Positions 9,360 through 60,728 of a stretch of DNA of 64,000 nt are shown here, piece after piece. Position 1 is the stretch's first letter. Each line of letters opens with the position of its first letter. The stretch lies in the NCBI GenBank assembly GCA_020160935.1, contig JAIUPL010000024.1, positions 1 to 64,000 on the forward strand. Direction: 5' to 3'. The translations under genes and the position numbers were made by a program. The notes under the pieces were generated by a model. That model was not told where the DNA came from. It worked only from the letters and a program-made list of their open reading frames with translations, and did not search any database. Source of the stretch: Bacteroidota bacterium. GTDB lineage: Bacteria; Bacteroidota; Bacteroidia; Chitinophagales; Saprospiraceae.

Positions 9360-9380
9360 GGTGTTTTTTTTAATGAACAA

Positions 9381-9464
9381 GGGCAATGAACCAAGGGGCA
9401 AAAGGCAAGGGGCAAAAGGCAAGGGGCAAAGGGCAAAAGGCAAAGAGGCAAAATGCAAGGGCAA
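9381..9464. repeat. GGCAAAAGGCAAGG tandem word array
   Basis: About ten irregular copies of the words AAGGGGCAAAAGGC and GGGCAAAGGGC lie between the divergent starts of hutI and the 9553 lipoprotein. There is no opposite arm, so it is a strand-asymmetric, purine-rich array rather than a hairpin. It sits in the leader of hutI. Confidence 0.75.
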
Positions 9465-9552: not shown

Positions 9553-10074
9553 ATGAAAATCAAAACTTTATCAAAAAACATCCTGTCGGGATCTTTTGCG
9601 GCGCTGCTGGCATCTGTGTTTTTCACCGCTTTTGGTTGCAAAACGGAAACTACCTGCAAATACAAACCAACGCCCATTTTTGAAGCCGGACTTCCTCATG
9701 TGACACAATATGACTTTCAAAAACAGGGCAGCAAATCACTGGAAAGCCTGCTGCTCGATACAGGCGTGCTGCTGGAAATCGACCAGGACATTTGCAATGA
9801 ATCCCGCCAGGAGTATCGTTTCAATGTAAAAGGAAACTACACTTCATTTCCCGATTCGCTCTGGCTCCGGGAAGCCTCCCGCCAGTTGGTGTTTCTCAGC
9901 ACTTTCTCGCCTAAACAGGCCGCCCTGAAAACCTGGGCCGATGTGATCGAACAACGCCGCGGCGAGATGCGCCTGGGTGAAGACCGCGAAATGGAACCTG
10001 GTATTTTTGTGCGTGTCGACCGCGTGGTTGGCCCGGATGAAAGCACGCTGGTGCTGGTGTTTTTACAGAAGTGA
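9553..10074 (+). CDS. small lipoprotein of unknown function
   Basis: A 173-aa protein starts at the ATG at 9553; the open frame reaches back to 9331 through repeat sequence and a hutI shadow. MKIKTLSKN is followed by a hydrophobic stretch ending in the lipobox FTAFGC, so it is a predicted lipoprotein. The mature part begins CKTETTCKYKPTP and holds a few Cys (CKTETTCK, DICNES) and a long amphipathic second half rich in charged residues. I recognise no family. It is convergent with the flippase gene, only 30 bases away. Confidence 0.75.
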   Translation: MKIKTLSKNILSGSFAALLASVFFTAFGCKTETTCKYKPTPIFEAGLPHVTQYDFQKQGSKSLESLLLDTGVLLEIDQDICNESRQEYRFNVKGNYTSFPDSLWLREASRQLVFLSTFSPKQAALKTWADVIEQRRGEMRLGEDREMEPGIFVRVDRVVGPDESTLVLVFLQK

Positions 10075-10100
10075 GAGGTGAGAAGCGAGATGCGAGAGGA
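10072..10100 (+). repeat. GTGAGAAGCGAGA purine array at stop codon
   Basis: The stop TGA of the lipoprotein is the first of several GTGAGA/GCGAGA words (TGAGAGGTGAGAAGCGAGAT and onward) filling the 30-base gap to the convergent flippase gene. There is no inverted arm. Confidence 0.55.
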
Positions 10101-10104
10101 GGGA

Positions 10105-11598
10105 TTAGCGTTTGAGTTTGGAGGCGAGCATGCGCAGCATGTCGTTGAGGTCGGCCGATAAGCGGAAATAGAAAGCCAGTCCGCCAAAAATCAGGGCATA
10201 CAATCCGGAGCGGATCACAATATCCAGCAGGTCGATGCCTGATTTGGGAATGAAAAATACCAGCCAGTACGCCACAAAACCGGAAACGATGACCCACAGC
10301 GTTTTGGAAGTAAAGGGCTGCAACCTGAATTTATACCACACCAGCACCACACTGATCAGGTTGTAGGATGCCACGGAAATAAGCGTGGCAATGGCAGCGC
10401 CATTGATCCCCATTCGTGGCACCAGCCACAGATTGAGCGAAATATTGGCCACCGCCAGGATGCTGAGCGACACCAGCGCATACAAATAGTATCTCGAATA
10501 ATACATGAGGTAGTTATTCAGCCCGGTGCCCATTTCCACCAGCCGGGAAATGCCGATAAAAAGAATAACAAATTTCCCGGAAGATACCTCCTTGCCGTTT
10601 GGCATGATGTGGAAAAGTTCGTCGACGGAAGTCCAGGCTGCGCCAAAAAGCAAAAAACCTGCTACCAACAGGTTGATAGACACCTTTTTATACAGGTTTT
10701 CCAGTTCCTGACGGTCGTCTTTCGCGAGGTATTGCGCCACGGAAGAAGCGCTGGCCGCATACAGCCCCTTGGTCGGAATATCGATGCCCGCAGCGATGTA
10801 ACCGGCGATGGAATACACGCCCGCATCTTTCAGGGCGCTCATGGAACCTACCATAAATACATCCACTTTAGACGCCAGTTGCAGGGCAAAACCACCCACT
10901 GCCCCGAATAGAATAAACTGCAACAACTCCTTTCGCAGCGCTGGCGTAAAAAAAGCAGGCTGCGGATCCCAGTGCCATTCTTTCAGCCAGCGCAGGTAAA
11001 AAACAAGGCTGAGCATCACCAGCATCGAATGCGCAACCAGCCCGTACAAGGCTGTTTCCAGGGAAATCCATTGTTGCCAAACAGCAATGAGCAACAACGG
11101 CGCAATAATCTTCTGTGAAAAGTCAAGCAACAAGGATGGTACAACAATCCGCTTGAAATTGGAGGAATAGACGCTCAACACCAGCCCGATCGAATAGAAA
11201 AATGCCAGGGGCAAGGCCAGCCAGAAATAAGTCGGCAACAAGGCTTCAGCACCATCTTTTGCCCTTGTCTGCATGAAATGCAGAATGTTATCCCAGAAAA
11301 TGCTGACGACCGCGGTACTGACCAATATCCCAACGCCGCACAACACCGCCAGCACCACCACGAATCCGTGGTGCCCGGAAGTCTTGTCCTGAAAACGGGG
11401 AAAAAAACGAATGGCAACCGTATTGGCTCCAAAGGTGAGCAGTGGCATGCCGATCATACCCACCGATTGCAATACTTGAAATAGCCCGTAGGCCACCAGC
11501 GCATGGGGATATACAAAAAAGGTGCTTACAGCGCCGATCATCAACCCGGCCAGGTTGACAATCGAATACTTCATTGTTTGGCGCCTTATTACCCCCAT
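10105..11598 (-). CDS. polysaccharide flippase (Wzx/MATE-type)
   Basis: A 497-aa integral membrane protein with about 12-14 hydrophobic segments spread over the whole length. The start MGVIRRQTMKYSIVNLAGLM is typical of Bacteroidota lipopolysaccharide/O-antigen flippases, which begin with a short basic stretch, so I keep the ATG at 11598 over the one at 11574. Such proteins flip undecaprenyl-linked sugar repeat units across the inner membrane. The exact substrate cannot be read from the sequence, and no glycosyltransferase cluster surrounds it here. The M43-like protease gene precedes it in the same direction. Confidence 0.85.
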   Translation of the reverse strand: MGVIRRQTMKYSIVNLAGLMIGAVSTFFVYPHALVAYGLFQVLQSVGMIGMPLLTFGANTVAIRFFPRFQDKTSGHHGFVVVLAVLCGVGILVSTAVVSIFWDNILHFMQTRAKDGAEALLPTYFWLALPLAFFYSIGLVLSVYSSNFKRIVVPSLLLDFSQKIIAPLLLIAVWQQWISLETALYGLVAHSMLVMLSLVFYLRWLKEWHWDPQPAFFTPALRKELLQFILFGAVGGFALQLASKVDVFMVGSMSALKDAGVYSIAGYIAAGIDIPTKGLYAASASSVAQYLAKDDRQELENLYKKVSINLLVAGFLLFGAAWTSVDELFHIMPNGKEVSSGKFVILFIGISRLVEMGTGLNNYLMYYSRYYLYALVSLSILAVANISLNLWLVPRMGINGAAIATLISVASYNLISVVLVWYKFRLQPFTSKTLWVIVSGFVAYWLVFFIPKSGIDLLDIVIRSGLYALIFGGLAFYFRLSADLNDMLRMLASKLKR

Positions 11599-11605
11599 TA
11601 TTCTT

Positions 11606-11667
11606 CAAACTACATGACTACTGTAGACTGCTGACTGACCACTGTCGACTGTTGACTATCAACTTTA
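11606..11667 (-). repeat. AGTCAACAGTCGACAGT word array at stop codon
   Basis: On the minus strand, directly after the stop TAA of the metalloprotease, the words AGTCAACAGTC, GACAGTGGTC, AGTCAGCAGTC and TACAGTAGTC follow one another. This variation on a 10-base CAGTC unit runs almost to the flippase start. Confidence 0.65.
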
Positions 11668-14356: not shown

Positions 14357-14561
14357 AGTGTTTTTGTGTTTTTGTGTTTTAGTGTTTTGGAGACTTCGCG
14401 CTTGGCATTTAGTTGTAAGGATGAGAGTTTTCAAAAATCCGTATGCACACGGTTTTCTGAACACTCCCCTGAATTCCATCACAAATGCCAAGCGCGAAGC
14501 ACTTCAAAAACACCAAAACACAAAAACACAAAAACACAAAAACACAAAAACACAAAATTCA
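14357..14561. repeat. long inverted repeat of GTGTTTTT words
   Basis: The left arm (14357-14410) is built of GTGTTTTT words plus CTTCGCGCTTGGCATTT. The right arm (14483-about 14556) is AAATGCCAAGCGCGAAG plus ACACAAAA words. The arms pair over more than 50 bases with a few mismatches. The loop contains a smaller imperfect palindrome around TCCGTATGCACACGG. The array ends at the stop TGA (14559-14561) of the Lrp gene and fills the gap to paaA. Confidence 0.8.
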
Positions 14562-16444: not shown

Positions 16445-16474
16445 CGATTGCCGATGTTCGGAAAATGGAAAAGC

Positions 16475-16732
16475 GACTATTCGCATATTGTACCTCTGTG
16501 TTACGTTGGTTACAATACAACAATAGCCAAGCGTTATTCAGGAGGTGGTATGGGCTTTAGCCCGTCGGGATAGCGCCATTCATGGCGCTCTAAAAAATAA
16601 TAAATAAAACGCCTTAAAAGGCGCTATCCCGACGGGCTAAAGCCCATACCACCACCTGAATAACGCTTGGCGTATCTCGCATATAGGTTTTGCCAACTGT
16701 AAAAAGGGACAGGGTACAATATGCGGATAGTC
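16475..16732. repeat. nested palindromic element, family B copy 1
   Basis: The inner arms 16526-16577 and 16620-16671 pair over 52 bases with one mismatch. They include GGCTTTAGCCCGTCGGGA and end in GCCAAG/CTTGGC. The outer arms 16475-16494 and 16713-16732 (CATATTGTAC against GTACAATATG) pair over 20 bases with one mismatch. A second related copy lies at 42843-43309. It fills the 306-base gap between two convergent genes, which holds no gene. It resembles a REP/MITE-like element. Confidence 0.85.
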
Positions 16733-18227: not shown

Positions 18228-18304
18228 AGAGAGTGAGAGAGTGAGAGAAGTGAGAGAGTGAGAGCGTGAGAGAGGTGAGAGAGTGAGAAGCGAGAGGTGA
18301 GAGA
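18228..18304 (+). repeat. GTGAGAGA purine array in the gltB-gltD spacer
   Basis: Roughly ten GTGAGAGA/GAGAGTGAGA words lie in a row, immediately upstream of the gltD start. On the transcript (minus strand) it is a CU-rich tract directly before the start codon. No clear ribosome-binding site is visible within it. Confidence 0.75.
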
Positions 18305-18350
18305 ATGGCCGCTCTGAAAGTGTAGATTTTTCCCTTTTCGAGTGGCCAAT

Positions 18351-18397
18351 TATCAACCCTCATCAACCTTCATCAACCTCATCAACCTTCATCAACC
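18351..18397 (-). repeat. GGTTGATGAA array containing the gltB stop
   Basis: On the minus strand the gltB stop TGA sits inside the first of about five GGTTGATGAAG/GGTTGATGAG words. The array therefore begins at, and includes, the stop codon. Confidence 0.75.
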
Positions 18398-23468: not shown

Positions 23469-23963
23469 ATGTCATTCAACTGGCTGGCCCTGTTTGTAGC
23501 GGCCCTCATTCCCCTTCTCATTGGTTTTGTTTATTACCACGAACGTGTATTTGGCAATGCCTGGATGAAAGCCAGCGGCGTGACGCCCGGCAATTCGGAC
23601 GGCATGGCGCGCATTTTCGGCATGACCTATTTTTTCAGCCTGATGCTGGCCATCATCCTGCAATCTGTCGTCATACACCAGACGCACATCATGTCGCTGC
23701 TGATGAACGAACCGGGTATCAACGACCCTAATTCAGATATGGGCAAATGGCTGGCCGAATTCATGGGCAAATACGGCAATAACTTCCGCACTTTCAAACA
23801 TGGCGCCCTGCACGGCACCATTGCAGGTATTTTTATCGCCCTGCCCATTGTGGGTATCAATGCCCTGTTTGAGCGCAGAAGCACCAAATACATCCTGCTC
23901 CATGCCGGCTACTGGACACTGACGCTGGCGTTGATGGGGGGAGTGGTGTGCGGATGGAAATAG
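23469..23963 (+). CDS. DUF1761 family membrane protein
   Basis: A 164-aa protein with four hydrophobic segments: about 5-23 (WLALFVAALIPLLIGFVYY), 50-68 (IFGMTYFFSLMLAIILQSV), 112-130 (LHGTIAGIFIALPIVGI) and 142-161 (LLHAGYWTLTLALMGGVVC). This is the layout of DUF1761. Its function is not known. It stands alone in an operon, divergent from gltB and convergent with the FtsX permease. Its stop TAG is the start of a repeat array. Confidence 0.8.
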   Translation: MSFNWLALFVAALIPLLIGFVYYHERVFGNAWMKASGVTPGNSDGMARIFGMTYFFSLMLAIILQSVVIHQTHIMSLLMNEPGINDPNSDMGKWLAEFMGKYGNNFRTFKHGALHGTIAGIFIALPIVGINALFERRSTKYILLHAGYWTLTLALMGGVVCGWK

Positions 23964-24091
23964 TGAGTAGTGAGTAGTGAGTCCGTAGAGTTGACCATAT
24001 TCTTCTGGGGCCTTCTAATTGTGGAACACTACTCACCACTCACCACTCACTACTCACTACTCACCATTCACTACTCACTACTCACCATTCA
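23961..24091. repeat. TAGTGAG inverted repeat joining two convergent stops
   Basis: The array TAGTGAGTAGTGAGTAGTGA starts at the stop TAG (23961-23963) of the DUF1761 gene. The opposite arm, CACTACTCAC words with CATTCACT variants (about 24029-24091), ends at the complement of the stop TGA (24089-24091) of the permease gene. The arms can pair over about 20 bases, and the right arm is roughly three times longer. The loop (23984-24028) shows nothing else. Confidence 0.85.
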
Positions 24092-26518
24092 CTCGCTTCT
24101 CAAACTTTCCGCCGGATTCGCTCTTGCTGCGCCCCAGGTTCTCAGCCCTACCGTCAGCAAAGCCACCAGCAGGGCGATACCGATAGTGAGGGCGAACAAC
24201 CACCAGGAAAGCGGCGTGCGATAGATAAAATCCTGGAGCCAGGCCTGCATGGCATAGTAGGCCAGCGGCGTGGCGATGACAGCAGCGATGAGCACCAGCA
24301 GCAGAAAATCGCGGCTGAGCAGGCCGATCACGCTGCCTACAGAGGCGCCCAGTACCTTGCGAATGCCGATTTCCTTGGTGCGCTGAACGGCCATGAGCGT
24401 CGCCAGTCCGAACAGGCCCAAGCAGGAAATCAGGATAGCCAGGGCTGCAAAACCCTTGCAAAGGGCCGAAAAACGCGATTCGTCGCGGTAAAACGCCGCA
24501 ATTTTTTCATCCATAAACTGCCCGTCGAATACCTGTTCCGGGAACGTTTTTTCGAATGCCTGCTGGATGGCGGCAGTGGTAGCCTCTATGTTTTCGGGAG
24601 CGATTTTGATACCTGCCGTGCCGTAGTCCGATTTTCGGCTAAAAATTGCCATAGGTTTCATTTCGTCTTTTGCGGAATTGGCGGTAAAGTTTCGCACCAC
24701 GCCCACTACAGGCAAGGGTTTCCTGCTACCGATGCGCAGGTTTTTGCCGATGGCCTCTTCGGGATTTTTTACGCCCAGTTTTTTCAAAAGAAATTCATTG
24801 ACCACGTATTCCCGGATCGTGTCGCTTTGCACCAGCATTCTTCCTGCTGCCAATTGCAGACCGTATGTATTGAAATAATCGGCATCCACCATTTTCATGT
24901 AGGTGCTGAACGGCGCATCTTCTGTGCTGTTGAAAGCAAAATTGCTGGCCCAGTTATTTCCGGAGGAGGGCACGTCGCTGCTGAAACTCACAGCCGATAC
25001 GGCCGGAATAGCCTTTAGTTCGTTTTTGAACTGCTGGAAACGCTGTACGCTCGAACTGTCGCTGCTGATGCCTTGCAATACATACACCAGATCGGGTTTG
25101 AAACCGAGGTCCATGTTGCGCAAAAAATTCATCTGGCTGATGGTCACCAGGGTGCCGATGATGAGCGCTTGTGCAATTACAAACTGGCTGATAACCAGCG
25201 CTTTGCGCAACGAAACGCCGCCCACTGTGGCAGAAGTGATTCTGTTTTTCAGCGCTTTTACCGGCTCAAATCCCGACAAGACCATCGAAGGGTAAAAACC
25301 GCCCAGCAGGCTTACCAGTACCGTTGCAAGCAGTAGAAAGCCCAGTACGGCCGGGTGGCTCAGAAATGGCTGAGAAGCCGGCACATCAGACACAAAGCGC
25401 AACAAGGGCGAACACAATGCAGCCAAAAACGCGCCGCACAGCACGGATGCCGCCACGAGCACGAAGGTTTCGCCCATGAACTGCTTCACCAACTGCATGC
25501 GCGCGCCGCCGAGCGATTTGCGCACACCCACTTCCCGGGCACGACCGGCGGCCAGTGCAGTGGCGAGGTTGACAAAATTGAAACAGGCCATCATGAGCAC
25601 CAGCAAACCGATGAGCGATAGCACCCAGAGTTTGCTTTTTTCGGTCAAGTGCGTACCGGCGGGGCTGCCGTAGCGCTCGTCGAAGTGCGCCTCGCTCAAG
25701 GGCTGCAGCGCATGGGTGCGTTTGCCGCGCGGACTGTTGTAGTGTTCCTTGCCCACCTGCGCCAGTGCGGTATTGGCGGCATTCCACTGGCCGGCGTCGG
25801 TCAGTAGGGCAAATGCCTGGTCGTTGCTGCTGGTGCTGCCCCACTCGGGGAAGAAGAAGTACAGATCGGGCGATTTTTTCAGGGTTTCATAGGAAATAAT
25901 AGAATGGCACTGAAAATCGGAATTTGCTGGTGGCGTACCCACCACGCCACGCACTGTAAGCAGCACCTTGTTGTCCATCACGAGGGTTTGGCCGAGGGCC
26001 ATTTGCCAGGTTCCGAAGCATTTTTCGGCCATTTTTTCGGACAAAATGACTGTATTGGGTTCTTTAAGCGCCGAAGCATCGCCGGCAAGCCAGGGCCAGT
26101 CGAAAATGGCAAAAAAGGAAGGTTCGGTGAAAATGGCCGTCTCGTGTTCGTCGTCGGTGGCAAATTTCCGGCCCGTCATGCTGCCTGGTGTCGTGGGCAC
26201 GGTAAACGTAGGCCAGGAGGTGTGTATGCGGGCAAACTGAGCGAATGGCGTCACTTTTTGTTGCATTTCATCCATCGCTGGAACAGGAATGCCTGCTGTA
26301 AAAAACTCGCCTTCCGAGTTCACCACGTCGTTGGTGACAATTCGGCCAATGCGGTCGTAATTTTTGTAAAAGGTGTTGAAACTCAATTCATAATGCACCA
26401 GCCTGAAAATAAGCAGGCTGGCAGCCACGCCGACTGCCAAACCGGTAATATTGATGAGGGTGTAGGTTCGGTTTTTGAACAAATGGCGTACTGCCAGGCG
26501 AAAATAGTTCTGTATCAT
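24089..26518 (-). CDS. FtsX-like ABC transporter permease (MacB type)
   Basis: An 809-aa protein with two MacB periplasmic-core plus FtsX modules. The N-terminal part (MIQNYFRLAVRHLFKNRTYT) leads into TM1 (INITGLAVGVAASLLIFRLV). A periplasmic domain spans about 45-280, then three TMs near 290-420 with the FtsX hallmark ALAAGRAREVGVRKSLGGAR. A second periplasmic domain (about 440-660) is followed by three C-terminal TMs with LMAVQRTKEIGIRKVLGASV. Bacteroidota carry many such permeases without an adjacent ATPase, and none is adjacent here. The family works in efflux, lipoprotein handling or sensing by mechanotransmission; the cargo is unknown. Confidence 0.92.
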   Translation of the reverse strand: MIQNYFRLAVRHLFKNRTYTLINITGLAVGVAASLLIFRLVHYELSFNTFYKNYDRIGRIVTNDVVNSEGEFFTAGIPVPAMDEMQQKVTPFAQFARIHTSWPTFTVPTTPGSMTGRKFATDDEHETAIFTEPSFFAIFDWPWLAGDASALKEPNTVILSEKMAEKCFGTWQMALGQTLVMDNKVLLTVRGVVGTPPANSDFQCHSIISYETLKKSPDLYFFFPEWGSTSSNDQAFALLTDAGQWNAANTALAQVGKEHYNSPRGKRTHALQPLSEAHFDERYGSPAGTHLTEKSKLWVLSLIGLLVLMMACFNFVNLATALAAGRAREVGVRKSLGGARMQLVKQFMGETFVLVAASVLCGAFLAALCSPLLRFVSDVPASQPFLSHPAVLGFLLLATVLVSLLGGFYPSMVLSGFEPVKALKNRITSATVGGVSLRKALVISQFVIAQALIIGTLVTISQMNFLRNMDLGFKPDLVYVLQGISSDSSSVQRFQQFKNELKAIPAVSAVSFSSDVPSSGNNWASNFAFNSTEDAPFSTYMKMVDADYFNTYGLQLAAGRMLVQSDTIREYVVNEFLLKKLGVKNPEEAIGKNLRIGSRKPLPVVGVVRNFTANSAKDEMKPMAIFSRKSDYGTAGIKIAPENIEATTAAIQQAFEKTFPEQVFDGQFMDEKIAAFYRDESRFSALCKGFAALAILISCLGLFGLATLMAVQRTKEIGIRKVLGASVGSVIGLLSRDFLLLVLIAAVIATPLAYYAMQAWLQDFIYRTPLSWWLFALTIGIALLVALLTVGLRTWGAARANPAESLRSE

Positions 26519-26757
26519 AGGTAGTTCCGGCGTAAGTAGGAATGATGGTGCTGAAATACGTCACAGGTTGTGCCGAAAATGTATGGTGTTGATTTTCAGA
26601 TATATGTGCAAGATTTTAGAATCTCTTTGTGTCCGAAAACGAACACGTTTGTGCGTTCGCGTACGGAAGTGCATACGGTGAAGTCATGCAAGTAACATAT
26701 CCCACTGAAATAGAGGCCATTGTTCAGCGGCATGCCGACATTTTCTAAATACTAGTG

Positions 26758-26867
26758 GTGTACTCTACGCATAGTGGCCTTTGTGAAACCTTGGTGTTCT
26801 TTGTGGTAAAAAATTTAAACACAAAGAACACCAAGGTTTCACAAAGGCCACTATACGTAGAGTACAC
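26758..26867. repeat. family A palindrome, copy 1
   Basis: Arms 26758-26805 and 26820-26867 pair over 48 bases with one mismatch. The words are GTGTACTCTACGC, GGCCTTTGTGAAACC and TTGGTGTTCTTTGTG. It lies in the 587-base spacer between the divergent permease and lipoprotein genes, so it cannot serve only as a terminator. The rest of that spacer (26519-26757, 26868-27105) holds no ORF or other structure I can support. Confidence 0.9.
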
Positions 26868-27065
26868 ATTTAGTATTGGTTGAAGAAGTCAGGAACGCCT
26901 CATTGTTTCTGTAAAATGAAAAGTCACGAACCGCTCGTCTAAAAAAGCACTAACAGACCAACCCTTTTCAATTCACAAACGTCTGTGTCAGTAAATTCTG
27001 ACAATTTGCAGCGTTTAGGCAAATTATTGCATCTACGCTCTGTAGCGATTCCCAACAAACGGCTA

Positions 27066-32427: not shown

Positions 32428-33696
32428 ATGGATGCTAACAGCCGTATTTACACCGATTCAGAGATTGGTAGACTGAAAAAAGTGATTGTTCACCGCCCCG
32501 ATGAAGGCATTGCCCGCATCACCCCGAAACGTGCCGGCGAATTGTTGTTCGACGATATTGTACACCTGCCCAAAATGCAGGATGAACACGACATTTTTGT
32601 AAATGTACTACGCGCATTTGTTGGTAAAGACAATGTGCTGGAAGTGCGCGACCTGCTGGCAGAAAGCACCCGGGATGAAGAAAGCAAGTACGAAGTAATC
32701 AACAAAATCACCGATTTTGAGGAGTTGCCCTATTCATTTATCCCGCGCCTGGCCGGTCTGTCGCCCGAACAATTGGCCGATACGCTCATCACCGGCTACC
32801 TCGAACCCGAAGACCGGATACTGTTCGACCCGATTCCAAACCTTATTTTCACACGCGACCTGGCCGTGACGGTCAAAGAACACGTGATCATTACCAAGGC
32901 GGCTAAAGAAGCCCGTTTCCGCGAAAACTTCCTTACCCGACTGATTTTCAGCAGCCACCCGGTATTTCGCCGACTGAAGGCAGACGGAAAAACCATCAAC
33001 CTGAACCGCGTCGATAAGTTTCCGCCCAACAAACGCGGCGAAACCATCAGCATTGAAGGCGGCGATGTGATGATGCTTCACAACGATTACCTGCTCATCG
33101 GTTCTTCCGAACGCACCAACAACTACGCATTCGAGGCGCTGAAAAACTACCTGTTCGACCGCGGCATCATCAAAAACGTGGTGCAGGTGAATATTCCTGC
33201 CGAGCGCACTTATATGCACATCGACACGGTATTTACGCAGATCAACCACAACCACATGGTGGGCTACAAACCCATTGTGCAAGATGGGCTCGGCTCGTAC
33301 GTGGACGTACATCGCTCTACCGGCGAGGAAGTGGAATACTCCAGTCTCAAGGATTTTTTGCTGGCTGAAGTGAACCCGAAAATGGAATTTATCTGGGCCG
33401 GTCGCGGCGAGAGCCCCTACCAGGAACGCGAACAATGGACGGATGGCTGCAACCTGGTGGCACTCAAGCCTGGTGTAGCGGTTACCTACGATCGAAATCC
33501 GATCACAGAAAAAGCATTCAAGGAAGTAGGTTACAAAGTTATTGGCGCTGAAAAACTGCTGCGCGATATTGAAAACGGGAAAATCACCCCCGACAAGGTG
33601 GAAAATACCATCATCACCATTCCTTCCAATGAGTTGTCGCGTGCACGCGGCGGCTCGCACTGTATGACCTGCCCGATTGAGCGCGAAGCCGTTTAG
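32428..33696 (+). CDS. arcA: arginine deiminase family protein
   Basis: Arginine deiminase hydrolyses L-arginine to citrulline and ammonia. The 422-aa length matches the family. The sequence has SEIGRLKKVIVHRPDEG, LFDPIPNLIFTRDLAVTV, ISIEGGDVMMLHNDYLLIGS, HIDTVFTQI (His/Asp of the catalytic pair) and the nucleophile in GGSHCMTCPIE (Cys412). I chose the ATG at 32428 (MDANSRIYTDSEIG); ATG 32386 is an alternative. No carbamate kinase or ornithine carbamoyltransferase is nearby, so an energy-yielding pathway is not shown here. Other amidinotransferase-fold activities are possible, although FTRD and the GGxxxC motif fit a deiminase. Confidence 0.85.
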   Translation: MDANSRIYTDSEIGRLKKVIVHRPDEGIARITPKRAGELLFDDIVHLPKMQDEHDIFVNVLRAFVGKDNVLEVRDLLAESTRDEESKYEVINKITDFEELPYSFIPRLAGLSPEQLADTLITGYLEPEDRILFDPIPNLIFTRDLAVTVKEHVIITKAAKEARFRENFLTRLIFSSHPVFRRLKADGKTINLNRVDKFPPNKRGETISIEGGDVMMLHNDYLLIGSSERTNNYAFEALKNYLFDRGIIKNVVQVNIPAERTYMHIDTVFTQINHNHMVGYKPIVQDGLGSYVDVHRSTGEEVEYSSLKDFLLAEVNPKMEFIWAGRGESPYQEREQWTDGCNLVALKPGVAVTYDRNPITEKAFKEVGYKVIGAEKLLRDIENGKITPDKVENTIITIPSNELSRARGGSHCMTCPIEREAV

Positions 33697-33840
33697 TTAT
33701 TGGTTATCAGTTATTGGTTATTAGGGGTGGGTAAGGGTTTATTTTTACAAATGCATGGCTGCACTTATTGTGAAGCCATGCATTTGTAAAAATAAACCCT
33801 TACCCACCCCTAATAACCAATAACCAATAACTGATAACTA
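33694..33840. repeat. 67-bp-arm hairpin spanning two convergent stop codons
   Basis: Left arm 33694-33760 and right arm 33774-33840 are complementary over all 67 bases apart from a local shuffle of TTATTGG and TTATCAG words. The loop is 13 bases. The first three bases are the stop TAG of the arginine deiminase gene. The last three are the complement of the stop TAG of the M48 gene. It should act as a bidirectional terminator; see findings. Confidence 0.95.
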
Positions 33841-34665
33841 CTTCAGTTTTCCCCGCCACTCCTCAATCGCTTCCTTGATCCGCTCGGCGCGGTTTTCCGG
33901 GTCGGGGTGGGTGCTTTGAAACTCGGGGGTGCGGTTGGGCCCCGCGGCTTGCTTCAGAATTTCCATCACACTGATGAGGTGTTCGGGGTCGTAGCCCGAT
34001 TCGAGCATAAAACGAACGCCGAGGTTATCGCTCTGCAGTTCCTGATCGCGGCCGTATTTCAGAGAAATCATATTGGCCACGGCCTGGGCGATGTAGGCCG
34101 AATTGGGGTTCGAGGGATCATAAGTGGCCATGGTGGCAGCCCCTGTAAGTCCTTGAGCCAGTTCCATTTGCGCCATTTTTTCGGCACTGTGGCGCGCTAC
34201 TACGTGGCCCACTTCGTGGCCGAGTACCCCTGCCAGCATATCCTTGTCGAGGCTGCGGCCATCGGAGGTGAGGCGGTACAACAGGGCTTCCGTGATAAAA
34301 ATCTGGCCACCGGGCAGTGCAAAAGCGTTGATTGTTTGCTGGTCGGCAAGCAGGTGGAAATCGTATTGGTAAGGCGTTTTGGAAGCCGCCGAATTGCGTA
34401 CGACATCATTGCCGACCTGTTTGACGATGGCAGCAGCCTGTTGATCGCGGCTAAGACCGCCAAATTCCTGCGCCATTTCGGGTGCGCTCTGCAGCCCCAT
34501 GGCAATTTCCTGCTCGGGCGACATGGAAATATGCTGTGTTTCTCCAGTGATGTCATTCACACTGCTTTGTCCGTAATATTTAAACAGGGCAAATGCAGCC
34601 ATCACGGCAGCGATGATAAGGGTAGGAGGGATGCGGAAACCACCGCTTGGACGTTCGCCTGACAT
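33838..34665 (-). CDS. M48-family metalloprotease
   Basis: A 275-aa membrane-anchored zinc peptidase. One N-terminal TM (about 13-30, PPTLIIAAVMAAFALFKY) is followed by a periplasmic domain with the M48 motif HEVGHVVARH (His150, Glu151, His154). The third ligand region is GRDQELQSDNLGVRFM. Also conserved are INAFALPGGQIFITEALL and STHPDPENRAERI. It resembles the BepA/LoiP-like outer-membrane quality-control proteases, but lacks a TPR tail. It is convergent with the arginine deiminase gene. Confidence 0.93.
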   Translation of the reverse strand: MSGERPSGGFRIPPTLIIAAVMAAFALFKYYGQSSVNDITGETQHISMSPEQEIAMGLQSAPEMAQEFGGLSRDQQAAAIVKQVGNDVVRNSAASKTPYQYDFHLLADQQTINAFALPGGQIFITEALLYRLTSDGRSLDKDMLAGVLGHEVGHVVARHSAEKMAQMELAQGLTGAATMATYDPSNPNSAYIAQAVANMISLKYGRDQELQSDNLGVRFMLESGYDPEHLISVMEILKQAAGPNRTPEFQSTHPDPENRAERIKEAIEEWRGKLK

Positions 34666-38021: not shown

Positions 38022-38246
38022 TAACACGAGGTTCTTTTTAACACAAAGGTTTTTTACCACAAAGTTTTTTACCGCGAAGATTTTTTTACCACAAAGGACA
38101 CCAAGGTTTCACAAAGGACACAAGGGGTTGCACAAAGAACACAAAGTATTGTATTTGAACTCTTTGTGTCCTTTGTGAAACCTTGGTGTCCTTTGTGGTA
38201 AAAAAATCTTCGTGGTAAAAAAACAATAAAACCTCCGTGTTTAAAC
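38022..38246. repeat. family A palindrome, copy 3 (extended)
   Basis: The core arms 38088-38124 and 38162-38199 (ACCACAAAGGACACCAAGG against its complement) are perfect over about 37 bases. Outer degenerate arms extend to about 38022 and 38246, with repeated TTTTTTACCACAAAG and GTGGTAAAAAAA units. It starts 6 bases after the stop of the SBBP protein and fills the gap to the next gene. Confidence 0.88.
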
Positions 38247-41200: not shown

Positions 41201-42845
41201 TTCTATCGGCTCGCAATCGGACGCGCTCGTTCGCCGAAACGTGATATACGACTGCGACCTCGGCGTGGCCGTAAAAGACAGCCTGGCAGTAGCGCACATC
41301 GACCAGAACACGTTTTATGGCAACCGGCAGGCGGTGTCCTGTTATGAAAAAAGCGCCCTGCGCGGCGGTGGCAAGGCTTTTGTGAAAAACACGATTTTGT
41401 CGACCTCCACGGAGGCGAGCGTTTATTTCGACGCAAAATCCAGCGTGGAGACCAGTTATTCGCTTTCCGACCGCGAGGTGCTGCCTGGAACAGGCAATCT
41501 GCACACCGATCCGGCGCTCGTGTTTCCGTCTGCGGGCAATTTCGAACTTGCGCCCGGCTCGCCTTGCATCGACAGCGGCGATCAGTCCTCACCCGACGAC
41601 CCCGACGGCAGTCAGGCGGATATGGGCGCGTACTACACCCATTCGGGAGCGTCCGCGCTGACGCTGCACATCAACGAATTTCAATACCACCCGCCGTTCA
41701 ACTACCCCACGGGCGACTGGGTGGAACTATACAACCGAACCGAACTACCCATCGACCTCACGGGCTGGCGTATGGCGCAGGGACTGAACGAGTTGGTGTT
41801 TCCGGAAAATACGACCGTGCAGCCGGGTGCTTACCTCGTGGTGTGTCAGGATACGGCGCAATTCCGCCTGTTTTATGCCCATTCGGCCCCACTGGCAGGT
41901 AATTTCCACTTCGATCTGGACAACAAAGCCGGAAAAATTGCCCTGTACGACTCCTCCGGAACGCTGGTTCACAGCGCGCGCTACGCCGACACGCGCCCCT
42001 GGCCGCCGCTGGCCGACGGTTTAGGCGCTACCGTGGAACTGGAACAAAACGCCGCCGGCAACCTGCCCACCGACTGGCGCGAAAGCCATGTGCTGCTGGG
42101 CACGCCTGGCTTGCCGAACAGCCTCCCGCCCGATGTGTCGGCGCTGTTTGTCAACGAAATTTTGGCCTCCAACACCCAGTCGCTCCCCGACGAGCAGGGC
42201 GCATACGACGACTGGTTTGAACTGTACAATGCTTCCGACGACTCGCTGAACGTGGGCGGCCTGTGCTTCACCGACAATGTGACCGAGCCTTGCCGCTGGC
42301 AGGCGCCTATGCATTTCCCCGACCTGACTACGTTGCCGCCGCACGGCTTCCTGCTGCTCTGGGCCGACGGGCAGCCGGGACAGGGCCCTTTGCACGCAGA
42401 CTTCAAACTGAGCGCAGCCGGCGAAACGGTGGCCATTTTTCAGCGCAGCGGTTTCGGCTATGCCGAACAGGAACGCCTGAACTTCGGCCCGCAAACGCCT
42501 GATATTTCCCGAGGCCGCTACCCCGACGGCAGCGCAGATATTCGTTTTATGCTGCCCACGCCCGGCGCGACGAATGTCGCTTCGGGCACGGCCGAGCCGC
42601 CGCCGCTGCCCCTGGAACTGTACCCGAATCCTTTTTCGGAATGGTTGTTTGTCAGCACCGAAACCGTAGAAAAACCTTACCGCCTGACCCTGCTGAATGC
42701 GCAGGGTCAGGTGGTGTACCGGGCCGAGGGGCTGCGGGATGAGCAGGCGCGGATACATCGGGGCGGACTGCCGGCGGGGGTGTATTGGGTGGTGGTGTTG
42801 GATGGGAAAGGGAGAAGGTATGGGGGGAAAGTGGAGGCGGATTGA
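38271..42845 (+). CDS. lamin-tail/CotH/beta-helix T9SS surface protein
   Basis: A 1524-aa modular secreted protein (signal MLMFSSTRIHLAVLSIAALF, cleaved after SASA). Order: lamin-tail domain (about 27-165, INELLAVNSTIASDPDFGEF); a chitobiase C-terminal-like Ig module (about 200-260, GAVIRYTFDGTTPNAASP); a CotH-type kinase-fold region (about 265-600, FINGAYNGIYELRERLDEQY, WRWVAADLEHAFGQ); an InlB_B-like module (GHRFVGWQGVSGNG). A right-handed parallel beta-helix follows (about 740-1110, GIDIKGVTNGIVRQNHVYGF), then two further lamin-tail domains (about 1125-1260, 1285-1430) and a type A sorting domain (LELYPNPFSEWLF ... LPAGVYWVVVL). CotH proteins phosphorylate coat proteins in Bacillus; activity here is not shown. 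Confidence 0.9.
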   Translation: MLMFSSTRIHLAVLSIAALFALPSASAQIQINELLAVNSTIASDPDFGEFSDYAELINNTAVPIDLGGYTLSDDPAETDKWALPALTLQPGELLLVWTDGQDKRPGDTAFVAYKNATATMSALHAGFRLSGDGEYLGLYNPQGNLMDEITYCVQAGDVSYGRSTANPSQWIYFGEPTPGAANSPFGSASMETPGTPVFSLAEGFYDTPQMLHLSTQEPGAVIRYTFDGTTPNAASPVFSTDIPISLNLSIKARLYVPGKMPGKVITKSFFINENKQMPVLSITSNAANLYGFDFGILQNAIKDREVPATIEYFEPGTGERAFLSGVGLRVFGSSIYNLPQRPISVRFKEKYGDEVLKYPLFEGKSIPRYTSFLLRNGGNDFNTAYFRDGLGVHLVKGKMDIDYQDYKPCIVFINGAYNGIYELRERLDEQYISSNHEINADNLDYLEDSLQVVAGDAYDFEDLMHFVQQHDLSDSATFARVAARIDLSELSNYLILRSFIGYQIADLNNHYWRNRDNQGKWRWVAADLEHAFGQLGGDPYTDNTIAKLAGIAGNLPDWSTLMFKRLLQNPGFRDEFIQRSAAYLNTIFQPSSTLQTVDSLKNLLQPQMPRHIGCWHSPPSMAVWQGNVGMLKTFLQNRPAFYRQHLSNLFGKQDSAQVSLHIVGQGKVLLSGVAFSENMQGPFFKNTHIKLQALPAPGHRFVGWQGVSGNGEYADLTPVGDTAFTAIFEQIPNISIIPPLISADTTLAAAASPWFGFDDVTVLPGARLRVEAGATLLLSDGVCLDVQGGLRLEGTASQHVRIQPDPLPSARRSYYGQSGFWGSIQAEEPTDSVVIRYADLRGGSFGRDRSRHFSTISAYDCPLWVEHSTISEGKAPLIARGGSAYIGYSEFHTFVSCNGFVSLYDMDAPLIEHCVFAGNRAINTDGIDIKGVTNGIVRQNHVYGFLGSNCDAIDLGIYTENCLVEQNIVHDCSDKGISIGSQSDALVRRNVIYDCDLGVAVKDSLAVAHIDQNTFYGNRQAVSCYEKSALRGGGKAFVKNTILSTSTEASVYFDAKSSVETSYSLSDREVLPGTGNLHTDPALVFPSAGNFELAPGSPCIDSGDQSSPDDPDGSQADMGAYYTHSGASALTLHINEFQYHPPFNYPTGDWVELYNRTELPIDLTGWRMAQGLNELVFPENTTVQPGAYLVVCQDTAQFRLFYAHSAPLAGNFHFDLDNKAGKIALYDSSGTLVHSARYADTRPWPPLADGLGATVELEQNAAGNLPTDWRESHVLLGTPGLPNSLPPDVSALFVNEILASNTQSLPDEQGAYDDWFELYNASDDSLNVGGLCFTDNVTEPCRWQAPMHFPDLTTLPPHGFLLLWADGQPGQGPLHADFKLSAAGETVAIFQRSGFGYAEQERLNFGPQTPDISRGRYPDGSADIRFMLPTPGATNVASGTAEPPPLPLELYPNPFSEWLFVSTETVEKPYRLTLLNAQGQVVYRAEGLRDEQARIHRGGLPAGVYWVVVLDGKGRRYGGKVEAD

Positions 42846-43309
42846 ACAGGATTTTTGGGATTGGAAGGATTAGAAGGATTTCCGTTTAGATGTCTAAAAT
42901 TTATCCAATATAGAGTATACACATATTGTACTCTGCCGTTTTTTGTTGTGCCGTAGCCGTTAGCCGATACCATGATTGCCAAGGGCGAAGGGGTGGTGGT
43001 GGTATGGACTTTAGTCCGTCGGGACAGCGCCATTTATGGCGCAAAAAGTATTATTTTTTTTGTGGGCGCCATAAATGGCGCTGTCCCGACGGACTAAAGT
43101 CCATACTACCACCCCTTTGCCCTTGGCAATACTCGCAATTATGGCCCCTGTTGGCATGCTTGCAAAGGTTATGAACTGAACTGACTAAATCGAAGTCTGT
43201 TTGTCCCGCATAGGGTACAATATGCGACAGTCATTTTATCCAATTTTAAAATTTGTCGACATCAAATTGGGAATCCTTCTAATCCCTTCAATCCTGATAA
43301 TCCTGTTCA
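42843..43309. repeat. three-layer nested inverted repeat, family B copy 2
   Basis: Outer layer: about 42843-42902 pairs with about 43245-43309 (both read TGAACAGGATT then GGATTRGAAGGATT-like words and GATGTC). These begin at the stop codons of the two convergent genes. Middle layer: CATATTGTAC (42922-42931) pairs with GTACAATATG (43215-43224). Inner layer: 42978-43042 pairs with 43066-43127 (GCCAAG ... GGACTTTAGTCCGTCGGGAC ... TTTATGGCGC). The inner and middle layers match the 16475-16732 element. No gene lies in this 461-base gap. Confidence 0.9.
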
Positions 43310-44686
43310 ACCTCCCAGCCCCCTCGCCTTTTCAAAATACCCTTCCGCCAGTTCGTTTTTGCCCATTTTTTGGCAGATGTCGCCCATTTTGTTGTACGAT
43401 ATCTTCAAATTCTTTTTGAACTGCGCATTGTCGGGGCTGCTTTGAAAGGTGAGTTCCGTCATTTCCAGGCCTTTTTCAAAATAGAAAAATGCTTTTTCGA
43501 GGTCTTCCAACTTTTCATACAACTCGCCCAATTTGTAATACGAAATGGCGAGTCCGTTTTTGAAGGCCACATTGTTGGGATAGTCCTTGAAGAGTTCTTC
43601 AAATAATTGGGTTTCATCTTCAAAGAACTTCAAAGCCTGCTGCAAATTGCCCAAAGCCGTGTGCGTAGAGCCGAGTTTTTCGTAAGAAATGGCGAGGTTA
43701 TTCTTGAACATTGAAATAGAAGGAGTTTTTGTGGATAACTCCAGTTCAATTTCCTTATATTTCTCAAAATGCAACAATGCATTGTTCAAATCACCTCTAA
43801 GCAAATAGAGGTATCCGAGCCTTTCATGTCCAAGCCCTACATCGTTTTTGTCATCAGAAAGGGATGCTTGTTCAATTGCTTTTTCAAATAGCGGAAGCGC
43901 ATCTTCCAGTTTACCAAAAACATTAAGAATGTCCCCTTTCTGAATCCATATCCAGGGTTTTTCATTATCCTGGACGTGCTGCTCCCAGGTATCAAGAGTA
44001 GAAAATGCCAGATCGTATTTTCCTAAATCATTGGCAGCATTAACAATCTGGGGATAAAGCGTAAGGCGGTATGCCAGTTCTGTTTCCGGGGTGTTGTCCA
44101 ATAACGAAATAAGGCGACGGAGTTCAGTATCATCCGTATTTACTATTTCGGCCTTTGGAATATATTTTTCTGGAGTTATGTCTGAGACAGCAGTGGCAAC
44201 TTCTTTTTCCAAATCCAGCATCAGGGAGCGAAAAGACCAAAGATCAGGCATTTTTTCCATGATGGTTTTTGCATACAATTCGCCGGTAGTGGCGGGAACA
44301 AAAACAAAAAGAGCGATCGGAGATTGAGCGAGTTTGTCGCGACGGAGGTTTAGCCCTGCAGTGATCTGACGCCGCCTTTCATTATTGGCAGCCATTTGAG
44401 GAGTTTCTCGTTGAAGAGAGTCACGGTCTTCTTTCAGTACATCGTCAAAGTTTTCAAGAAAAAAGAAGCCTCTGTTTATGGAAAAATAGGCATCCAAAAT
44501 GCTACGATAATCGCTCGCCGCTGCGTCGGCTTTCAGGAAAGGGCGATCAGGGAATCGAGATTGCAGGTCGCTTTCAAGTTGGCGCAGAAACGAATAGTGA
44601 TTGAACCGTACAATCACAAAGCGGAATGCCTCTGTACGAAGCAGTTTGAACAAAGGTCTTGTTTCTTCGGTATAATTATCCGACAT
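43307..44686 (-). CDS. TPR protein with degenerate NTPase-like N-terminal domain
   Basis: A 459-aa protein starts 11 bases inside the end of the upstream ATPase gene. Residues about 1-180 form a distinct globular domain with FRFVIVRFNHYSFLRQLESD, NRGFFFLENFDDVL, LNLRRDKLAQSPIALFVFVP and MPDLWSFRSLMLDLEKE. From memory, LNxxRDxL and PDxWSxRS mark the P-loop-less region found before TPRs in STAND-like proteins. No Walker A is visible. From about 190 on come six to seven TPR motifs (LGHERLGYLYLLRGDLNNAL, NNLAISYEKLGSTHTALGNL, KNGLAISYYKLGELYEKLED). The pair looks like a sensor/effector or scaffold system; no nuclease motif is seen. Confidence 0.82.
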   Translation of the reverse strand: MSDNYTEETRPLFKLLRTEAFRFVIVRFNHYSFLRQLESDLQSRFPDRPFLKADAAASDYRSILDAYFSINRGFFFLENFDDVLKEDRDSLQRETPQMAANNERRRQITAGLNLRRDKLAQSPIALFVFVPATTGELYAKTIMEKMPDLWSFRSLMLDLEKEVATAVSDITPEKYIPKAEIVNTDDTELRRLISLLDNTPETELAYRLTLYPQIVNAANDLGKYDLAFSTLDTWEQHVQDNEKPWIWIQKGDILNVFGKLEDALPLFEKAIEQASLSDDKNDVGLGHERLGYLYLLRGDLNNALLHFEKYKEIELELSTKTPSISMFKNNLAISYEKLGSTHTALGNLQQALKFFEDETQLFEELFKDYPNNVAFKNGLAISYYKLGELYEKLEDLEKAFFYFEKGLEMTELTFQSSPDNAQFKKNLKISYNKMGDICQKMGKNELAEGYFEKARGLGG

Positions 44687-46783: not shown

Positions 46784-46915
46784 AAAAAGCGCGGTGTACG
46801 CTACGCCTTGTGTCCTTTGTGAAACCTTGGTGCACTTCGTGGTTAAAAAAATTTTACCACAAAGGCCACCAAGGTTTCACAAAGGACACAAGGCGTAGCG
46901 TACACCGCGCTTTTT
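46784..46915. repeat. family A palindrome, copy 4
   Basis: Arms 46784-46843 and 46856-46915 are 60 bases each, with only a few mismatches in the inner part (GCACTTCG against GGCCTTTG). They include AGCGCGGTGTACGCTACGCC. The loop is 12 bases. It is the most complete copy and lies in the 329-base gap between two same-strand genes; no gene is seen there. Confidence 0.93.
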
Positions 46916-49560: not shown

Positions 49561-49691
49561 AACCACGATTTTTTATTTAACCACCAAGGACACAAAGGAT
49601 TGCACAAAGAGCACAAAGTATTGAATATTAGACCTCCGTGTCCTTTGTGTAATCCTTTGTGTCCTTGGTGGTTAAATAAAAATTAGTGGTT
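49561..49691. repeat. family A palindrome, copy 5
   Basis: Arms 49561-49618 and 49634-49691 pair with few mismatches (AACCACCAAGGACACAAAGG against its complement; AACCAC/GTGGTT at the ends). The right arm ends 31 bases before the ATG of the glycosyltransferase and could fold in its leader RNA. Confidence 0.88.
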
Positions 49692-51617: not shown

Positions 51618-51762
51618 TTTACCACGAAGTTATTTTTTACCACGAAGGACACAAAGGTTTCACAAAGTTCACAAAGTGTTGTATGTGAACCCTTTGTGAA
51701 CCTTGTGAAACCTTTGTGTCCTTCGTGGTAAAAAACTTCGTGTAAAACCCTTCGCGGTAAAA
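51618..51762. repeat. family A palindrome, copy 6, between convergent stops
   Basis: Inner arms 51638-51676 and 51692-51731 pair (ACCACGAAGGACACAAAGG against CCTTTGTGTCCTTCGTGGT). Outer words TTTACCACGAAG and CTTCGCGGTAAAAAA extend to within a few bases of both stop codons (TGA 51615-51617 and TAG complement 51765-51767). Confidence 0.88.
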
Positions 51763-54938: not shown

Positions 54939-55069
54939 GGTTAAAATCGGGTTGAGAAGTGTTTTGAAGTAGGGTGGTTTTACAGTAAAAGTATAAATTT
55001 TTTTGCAAAAAACGGATTTGTTACCTCTCATCCATGAATATAGAAAAACGATCTGTCGATCTGTCTAAT

Positions 55070-55174
55070 CTACGCTTTGTGCTCTTTGTGAAACCTTTGT
55101 GAACCTTGTGGTAAAAATTTTTAACCACAAAGAACACTACGGTTTCACAACGGACACAAAGCGTAGAGTACACC
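55070..55174. repeat. family A palindrome, copy 7
   Basis: Left arm 55070-55112 and right arm 55124-55174 pair imperfectly (CTACGCTTTGTG against CACAAAGCGTAG; CTTGTGGT against ACCACAAAG). It lies in the 418-base divergent gap between the BNR gene and the GltD-like gene. The remainder (54939-55069, 55175-55356) shows no gene. Confidence 0.85.
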
Positions 55175-60572: not shown

Positions 60573-60728
60573 TTGAGGGGGTTGAGAAAGTTGAGAGGTT
60601 GAGGGGTTGCGGCGAATGGACAGATAAATCATTCCCTTACCCGGAGCGCTTGTGTTCAACCCCTCACCCCCCTCAACTTCTCAACCCCTCACCCCCCTCA
60701 ACTTCTCACCCCCCTCACCCCCCAACCA
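60570..60728. repeat. GTTGAGGGG inverted array between PFOR and ppdK
   Basis: GTTGAGGGG/GTTGAGAAA words begin at the PFOR stop TAG (60570-60572) and run to about 60611. The complementary CCCCTCAAC/CCCCTCACC words run about 60657-60728, up to 30 bases before the ppdK start. They form an imperfect inverted repeat in the 186-base gap between two same-strand genes. Confidence 0.82.

Follow-up and report, generated by a model that had tools for sequence, protein, structure and literature searches.

Word-repeat arrays at stop codons of a bacterial genome are mostly the arms of dispersed hairpin elements

The short-word repeats that begin at stop codons in the stretch of DNA analysed here (the window, 64,000 bases, C45:1-64000) are mostly the two arms of large hairpin elements that belong to dispersed families. 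The arms mirror one another, and the elements are biased towards gene 3' ends and convergent spacers, with a shifted stop usage beside them. Between related genomes, elements are present or absent at orthologous places, and the repeat words change. With a probability of roughly two in three, these are REPIN-like palindromes that end in word repeats, are held symmetrical through template switching and settle at gene 3' ends. An earlier note on this DNA had ascribed the repeats either to a mutational process that expands sequence next to stop codons or to selection for readthrough insulation and 3'-end RNA structure; as a whole, its interpretation is partly supported.

The window is part of a genome of 5.84 Mb in 51 contigs, whose nearest named relatives are Saprospiraceae MAGs: its MacB/FtsX-like protein shows 95% identity in JAEUUT010000171.1 and 78-79% in two others. 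The genome sample, taken without the window, comprises 990,895 bases (C14 1-300000, C51 1-340000 and at most the first 20 kb of each of C1-C20). C14 and C51 were picked for length, yet after a list of word places that names both; the strictly blind subset consists of the 19 contigs requested before any word list (350,895 bases). Genes were called with a home-made hexamer scorer. Tandem arrays were identified using TRF and kept at periods of at most 30, which excluded 21 of 402, and inverted repeats were scored ungapped, mostly with a cut-off of score >=20 for a hairpin. Spacers below 40 bp or above 1200 bp were dropped in the class counts of hairpins and those above 1500 bp in later hairpin counts; for arrays, spacers below 30 bp were dropped for density and those below 60 bp for the edge counts.

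The window was left out of the array tally, the array-edge counts, the hairpin class counts, stop usage, the stop-proximity simulation, the blind-part and within-class figures, the genome 40-mer figures and the convergent coverage. It was included in the genus hairpin survey, double-word sharing, family clustering, mirroring, the comparisons of this genome (G000) with its relative G028, the RAYT-core test and the energy, T-tract and GTAG counts. Stretches chosen for listed words (L046-L048, L063-L068 and most of G028) were excluded from the array tally and the array-edge, hairpin class and blind-part counts and enter the orthologue comparisons. G028 also enters the genus hairpin survey, double-word sharing, clustering, mirroring, and the energy/T-tract, stop-proximity and RAYT-core counts; its hairpin density is not blind, because its stretches were largely picked for listed TAGTGAG words.

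The association of arrays with stop codons is confirmed. All 12 positions given earlier as gene ends at which a repeat starts are stop codons, and at 11 of them best-lag self-identity over the 40 nt starting with the stop is above the 99th percentile of 701 coding controls. The exception, position 148, falls below that percentile and reads AAGTCGTTAGTCCTGAG, a weak form of the AGTCCTR word. Among the closed genes of the window, 13 of 35 exceed the coding 95th percentile in the 40 nt from the stop. The 40-base comparison that had been proposed for the genome was carried out on the sample, and the same percentile was exceeded by 224 of 767 stretches that begin at the stop. The figure was 136 of 770 for stretches leading up to the start, 80 of 780 for those immediately preceding the stop and 48 of 780 in mid-gene. 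Arrays of period <=30 are located mainly in spacers (305/381), which make up 14% of the sampled sequence. In spacers of at least 60 bp over 0.99 Mb, an array edge lies within 10 bp of the gene end at 131 of 481 stops vs 33 of 565 starts; by class, this is the case at 65/178 convergent and 66/303 tandem stops, and at 6/262 divergent and 27/303 tandem starts. The blind 350,895 bases give 58 of 186 stops vs 17 of 220 starts, made up of 24/74 convergent and 34/112 tandem stops and of 4/108 divergent and 13/112 tandem starts. Placement was examined in tandem spacers that measure 300 bp or more and are unfilled by the hairpin (own sample and G028). Of 36 hairpins there, 14 are at most 12 bp from the stop, whereas a uniform distribution that spares 100 bp for the promoter would give 4.6. 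At a limit of 200 bp the figures are 20 of 50 vs 13.3 expected (simulated p 0.003). As this proximity exceeds the uniform expectation with the promoter kept free, the link to the stop is real and more than promoter avoidance.

Twenty features were delimited in the window:

9372-9464: AAGGGGC array without an inverted partner, in a divergent spacer.
10067-10105: GAGAGGTGAG-type array, between convergent stops 30 bp apart.
11615-11667: GACTGTNGACT-type array without a stem, at the stop 11667 (- strand).
14358-14390 and 14513-14545: arms of a GTGTTTTT hairpin in a tandem spacer; the array, which runs to 14565, crosses the stop 14561.
16526-16671: GGTGGTATGG-family palindrome in a convergent spacer.
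18228-18397: two arrays of unlike words, AGAGAGTG and GGTTGATGA, that form no stem; the stop 18394 lies within the second array.
23959-23982: left arm of a hairpin, (TAGTGAG)3, beginning with the TAG stop of a DUF1761 gene (23469-23963, + strand); stem score 21 with 24045-24068.
23982-23996: core remnant TCCGTAGAGTTGACC, which has no partner in the best stem at this site; hairpins elsewhere contain modules of the same kind.
24027-24093: right arm of the same hairpin, with the reverse-complement word in 9.6 copies; it extends into the stop of the MacB/FtsX-like gene, a TGA at 24089-24091.
26748-26877: hairpin in a divergent spacer; the best inverted repeat in the orthologous G028 spacer scores only 9.
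33694-33840: stop-to-stop hairpin with outer word TTATTGG/TTATCAG and core GGGGTGGGTAAGG, filling the convergent spacer between arginine deiminase-like and M48 peptidase-like genes.
38065-38222: CACAAAGG-family hairpin.
42843-42883: left word arm of the GGATTAGAAGG family, beginning at a TGA stop (coordinates by eye).
42995-43113: second palindrome, of the GGTGGTATGG family, between the two GGATT arms.
43270-43309: right word arm, an inexact reverse complement of 42843-42883, ending in the stop of the gene 43307-44686 (- strand; by eye).
46784-46915: CACAAAGG-type hairpin with a 4-nt centre.
49561-49691: CACAAAGG-family hairpin.
51633-51735: CACAAAGG-type hairpin in a convergent spacer.
55069-55167: CACAAAGG-family hairpin in a divergent spacer.
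60572-60727: GTTGAGG array and CCCCTCAAC array forming an imperfect hairpin, best stem 60590-60606 with 60669-60685; the G028 counterpart holds GGTTGATGAGG and GGATTAGAAGG words.

The site at 23959-24093 is lopsided, with three copies of TAGTGAG in the left arm against about nine in the right one, and with the core remnant TCCGTAGAGTTGACC. By eye, the GGTGGTATGG palindromes in the regions 16448-16730 and 42915-43225 are flanked at both sites by outer inverted CATATTGTAC / GTACAATATG, which looks as if palindromes were nested in one another. The MacB/FtsX-like permease has 16 matches in its own genome, several of them in tandem (C51:76584-95409, C1:11748-19521 and 24089-26518 of the window). 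No known structured RNA was matched in the window by Rfam at gathering thresholds.

Most arrays are faced, on the other side of the spacer, by their own word in reverse complement, a feature overlooked in the earlier note. Among the spacer arrays, 213 of 288 overlap an arm of a long inverted repeat and 75 lie apart from any arm. Inverted repeats of score >=20 are commonest in the convergent spacers of the sample (66/95), followed by the tandem (84/329) and the divergent ones (16/133); the blind part gives 27/40, 36/123 and 6/55. In one base shuffle of each of the 557 spacers, none reached 16 and four reached 12. Where present in a convergent spacer, the hairpin covers a median of 88% of it. 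A total of 257 hairpins were collected from 1.44 Mb of sequence, which comprises the own sample, the window and a portion of G028; their median arm length is 50 bp and their ends often consist of tandem 7-10-mers. BLAST clustering, which is rough and in one cluster mixes two words, divides them into about 15 families and 19 singletons, each family with its own word and its own core. The density in the sampled genome is about 170 hairpins per Mb, in some 15 families. An inner module, GTAG[AC]GT[AT][GC]AC, which was sought within the paired arms, is found in 45 of the 257 hairpins; it occurs 63 times in the spacers of this genome vs twice in 911 kb of coding sequence.

The words had been considered private to each site, which is wrong, and their differences to exclude one mobile family, an argument that finds no support. 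With at most one mismatch, TAGTGAGTAGTGAG, which represents the TAGTGAG word, has 194 + 210 matches in the genome, compared with 38 + 31 for its reversed control, itself a real word of other members (91 + 105 in G008). The exact pattern CACAAAGGACACAAAGG gave no match in the genome. In the own sample and the window, 35 of 100 distinct exact double words occur in more than one spacer. The words fall into the dispersed families with common cores, and at 11 of 45 orthologous spacers a hairpin of one genome is missing in the other. The origin proposed earlier, local slippage in which each stop codon and its neighbours duplicate and grow, would account for words that often hold TGA or TAG and begin at the stop, for arrays that sometimes extend into the last codons, and for a short AGCAAGA-AGCAAAA stretch in G028 that stands at the same stop as a CAAGGGG hairpin of this genome. 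It is nonetheless highly improbable: slippage yields no inverted partner arm, the same words recur at many unlinked loci, including divergent spacers, which contain no stop, and two words are missing from most relatives, the AGTCCTR double word being matched 472 and 521 times in a pair of related genomes but in none of the 40 others.

The two arms of an element are more alike than arms drawn from different members of its family, although the values for mirroring are inflated by the selection of hairpins with a good stem. Partner arms are 94.9% alike (n=131 hairpins) and arms of different hairpins in one family 76.1%; in register the arms agree at 94.0% vs 77.7% when slid by one word, the register being better in 73 of 82 hairpins. 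In 11 orthologous hairpins shared with G028, the arms are mirrored at 95 and 97% on average within each genome, whereas the same arm is 69% alike between the genomes, with across-genome values from 0.47 to 0.91. Two of these 11 pairs show a weak contrast or none, C20:17766 (0.87 mirrored in G028 and 0.87 across) and C21 offset 5922 (0.91 across). Since the arms mirror each other better within than between genomes, both arms mostly change together at each place. Template switching has been described as producing or perfecting reverse-complement arms (PMC8794818), and on this analogy switching between the arms can yield such a joint change. A mutational process at stops, as suggested earlier, thus appears to act by copying from arm to arm rather than by growth out of the stop codon.

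Words differ among relatives both in their distribution and at the same place. Across the genus, the AGTCCTR double word AGTCCTRAGTCCTRAG has 235 + 237 (472) matches in this genome and 257 + 264 (521) in G028, and none in the 40 other genomes; TAGTGAGTAGTGAG is present in 5 of 41 genomes and heavy in only three. The GTTATYR word GTTATYRGTTATYRGTTAT is scattered through 16 of 120 family genomes and heavy (153 + 176) only in this one. Behind the MacB/FtsX-like stop, this genome has TAGTGAG, G028 has AGTCCTR, G016 has GAGAGGGTG, G031 has TCGTGAG, G008 and G024 have GAGTGAT/G, and G033 and G025 have AATCGAATC (by eye); among the 30 loci compared, this one included, many of the rest carry no word visible by eye. 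Behind the M48 peptidase gene, TTATTGG in this genome corresponds to AGTCCTR in G028 despite a 98% identical protein, and other genomes have TTATCAG, TTATGAG, GTTGACC, AAATGTA and more, several being wordless by eye. An orthologue search with gene 43307-44686 gave mainly repeat-protein relatives and was left aside for spacers.

Protein identity between G000 and G028 is about 92% (median of 100 reciprocal best pairs). At score >=16, both genomes have a hairpin in 11 of 45 orthologous spacers (length >0), one genome only in 11 and neither in 23. Among spacers of at least 40 bp in both genomes, median identity is 0.86 without a hairpin (18 spacers), 0.50 with a hairpin in one genome (8) and 0.63 with a hairpin in both (11). 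At C21:200001-220000 offset 11914 (L048) of this genome, a CAAGGGG hairpin lies directly behind the stop and the spacer is 238 bp longer than in G028 (C180:10659, L184), which has just AGCAAGAAGCAAAA, the short AGCAAGA-AGCAAAA stretch, with the remaining spacer conserved; this stretch is either a seed or an excision scar. In L121 (G010 C229), near a contig end, a run of about 21 G stands behind the orthologous stop, possibly an assembly problem arising from such repeats.

These distributions bear on a dedicated, genome-specific activity, such as that of a reverse transcriptase or an HUH enzyme, which would write words and rewrite gene 3' ends with a vocabulary for each lineage. Two words are indeed sharply lineage-bound and of high copy, and both arms are replaced at orthologous places with borders at the stops. 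A search limited to PF01797 found no such enzyme, GTTATYR is scattered in the family (16/120 genomes), and family cores travel with their words, for which mobile elements are the simpler account; an activity of this kind is accordingly rated as very unlikely. A bolder variant is doubtful, namely lineage dialects in which a trans-acting system would copy a few 7-10-mer words into palindromes at hundreds of stops and periodically swap words across loci, overwriting the stop and last codons.

As RNA, the hairpins are predicted to be very stable. The spacer at 33694-33843 folds at -109.1 kcal/mol (z -19), in line with the 3'-end RNA structure suggested earlier, and across 255 hairpins of at most 400 nt the median energy is -93.6 kcal/mol, with 251 at or below -40. 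A T-tract follows 32 of 514 stem ends, no more than at random spacer positions (69/1028), so that an intrinsic terminator of the usual type, for which the stable hairpin is present, is unlikely. The hairpins may contribute to the stability of mRNA 3' ends or be sites for RNase III. Selection for 3'-end structure could itself be the driving force, the hairpins being the transcript 3' ends of convergent genes, with any folding sequence kept and the words left free. This would fit the long stems in 66 of 95 convergent spacers, the energies, the 11 of 45 orthologous spacers whose stem persists in G000 and G028 alike, in many cases with changed words, and a stop proximity beyond promoter avoidance. 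It is less easily reconciled with the lack of a U-tract behind the stems, with 29 of 95 convergent spacers without a stem of score >=20, with 11 of 45 orthologous spacers that bear a hairpin in one genome only, and with seven smaller-genome relatives that have no hairpin in 213 spacers; alone, it also leaves the shared-core families and lineage-bound words unaccounted for. As the driving force, such selection is unlikely.

Those seven relatives (G001, G002, G011, G013, G018, G019 and G035; 3.4-4.3 Mb) are hairpin-less at score >=20 in the 213 sampled spacers, and six of them are also without PF01797. Element loss may accompany genome reduction.

The hairpin elements can overwrite gene ends, the stop codon included. 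TAA is used at 12 of 72 stops with an abutting arm and 19 of 97 with an arm otherwise within 40 bp, compared with 255 of 598 elsewhere (p about 1e-5 each). That this merely reflects gene order was considered and rejected, as the TAA shortage persists within convergent spacers (18/103 vs 32/87, p 0.003) and within tandem spacers (13/66 vs 112/266, p 0.0006). Between G000 and G028, for which 58 of 63 reciprocal pairs above 80% identity were scorable, genes that have a hairpin near the stop in one or both genomes end in different stop codons in 11 of 31 cases, and genes without one in 3 of 27 (Fisher p 0.04); their C-terminal ends differ in 10 of 31 and 2 of 27 cases (Fisher p 0.03); both p values count the genes on the two sides of one spacer apart. 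One gene pair ends AAG TCC TGA vs GAG AGG TGA, two words with the stop at the same place. That the elements as a rule supply a new stop which shortens or lengthens the protein does not hold at 23959-24093, where the MacB/FtsX-like alignments (30 loci, this one included) all end at residue 808 or 809 irrespective of the sequence behind; beside hairpins in general, C-terminal ends do differ more often, as counted above. For readthrough insulation, also suggested earlier, the counts are mixed. Read outward, the arms (<=42 nt, 257 arms) contain 2.89 stops vs 1.73 inward, and three frames are blocked in 93 of 257 arms vs 41, while the large TTATYRG family runs the opposite way (2.45 vs 5.29 stops per arm). 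All-frame stops as a designed insulator are doubtful on these counts.

PF01797, the RAYT type, is found in 34 of 42 genus genomes, with two matches in this genome. One RAYT gene (L225) is adjoined by a word array and a hairpin, whose core lies upstream of the gene; this core is found in 13 sampled spacers, 10 of which carry GTGAG words, the word type of the site at 23959-24093, vs 58 of 804 others (p 2e-9). The second (L226, C29:2100-3045) stands between two similar GTAGTTGGCGAGGACGCCAACTACGGCC palindromes (L226 601-740 and 1399-1545), which occur at one other place in the sampled sequence and contain GTAG; the pair around the gene is the classical REPIN arrangement. This gene context suggests that RAYT enzymes may move some of these elements. 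That RAYT presence accounts for hairpin presence was rejected after a comparison across the genus, which is confounded by clade and contradicted by G032 and G039: these MAGs (listed completeness 96%) are without a PF01797 match, yet 4 of 50 spacers of the first and 3 of 40 of the second contain a hairpin of score >=20, and about two per genome look word-like by eye. G018 is RAYT-bearing yet has hairpins in none of 19 spacers. REP/REPIN hairpins have an unpaired GTAG or CGTC tag at the foot; here GTAG was sought within the arms, where it is little above shuffles, being found in the 5' arm of 77 of 257 hairpins vs 64 in shuffled arms, and CTAC in 22 of 257. At one clean empty site (C9:7135 vs G028), a single case, no MITE-type target-site duplication is visible by eye. 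Clean empty sites were few, so that movement of the whole hairpin is inferred.

In the proposed mechanism, an element consists of a word array, a family core, a loop, the mirrored core and the mirrored word array. Such elements would spread as non-autonomous mobile palindromes in REPIN fashion, perhaps moved by a RAYT (HUH Y1) transposase. Template switching between the arms during replication would then copy word variants and copy-number changes into the partner arm, and the palindrome would stay near perfect while its sequence drifts fast. The site right behind a stop would tolerate a new element, and its overwriting by other families, because no promoter lies there and any word that supplies a stop is accepted; repeats would therefore come to begin with the stop codon. 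Transcribed, the elements would form very stable 3' hairpins. These lack the U-tract that marks intrinsic terminators and may serve in transcript protection or processing.

The elements share several properties with REPs, which are described as dispersed extragenic palindromes of 20-40 bp, mainly between convergent or co-directional genes, with doublets that form long hairpins (PMC3733652, PMC3116915). In the species shown there, most REPs are less than 20 bp away from a 3' end, and the TAG stop frequently comes from a GTAG REP (PMC3733652), so that contact with the stop is not new in itself. The present elements are likewise dispersed many-copy palindromes (257 hairpins, 19 singletons), mainly downstream of genes in convergent and co-directional spacers, with one RAYT gene (L225) beside a dispersed hairpin and the other (L226) between GTAG palindromes. 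They differ from REPs in the greater length of their arms (median 50 bp) and in the tandem 7-10-mers that frequently form the arm ends. Where the module contains GTAG, this motif is paired inside the arm, and the word part turns over between related species. Their tandem-word ends, mirrored drift and lineage vocabularies are distinct from REPs.

Heptamer repeats provide the second comparison. TAACTGA direct repeats are reported as intergenic in scattered genomes, including five Bacteroidetes, with strain-specific histories; in a Beggiatoaceae genome they lie mostly just upstream of starts and are direct, with one indirect set (PMC4679880). The present arrays are intergenic tandem heptamers too, but they lie at stops (131/481 vs 33/565 starts) and are mostly palindromic. 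The GGGAATC/GGGGAYT heptamers of Xanthomonas and Nostoc, G-quadruplex words, are described as concentrated in spacers, in many cases on the sense strand and no more than 50 bp from a stop, with some inverted pairs, and 83% keep the same gene context between two Xanthomonas (PMC4692102); here, in contrast, word and spacer length change between relatives at a median of 92% protein identity. Hairpin correction by template switching, also a process that perfects arms, has been studied in RNA genes (PMC8794818), whereas here it would act on families of word-armed hairpins.

The STRR sequences of heterocystous cyanobacteria are short tandem heptamers in intergenic DNA, a description that the present arrays share. 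Long palindromes of the kind described here are held by 66 of 95 sampled convergent spacers, where stop usage differs, and arm-to-arm copying, word turnover and stop-codon invasion are measurable between genomes at about 92% protein identity. An element uniting heptamer tandems with REP-like palindromes was not found in a limited search of open-licence papers; two repeat types that the papers cited describe apart are here united in one element.
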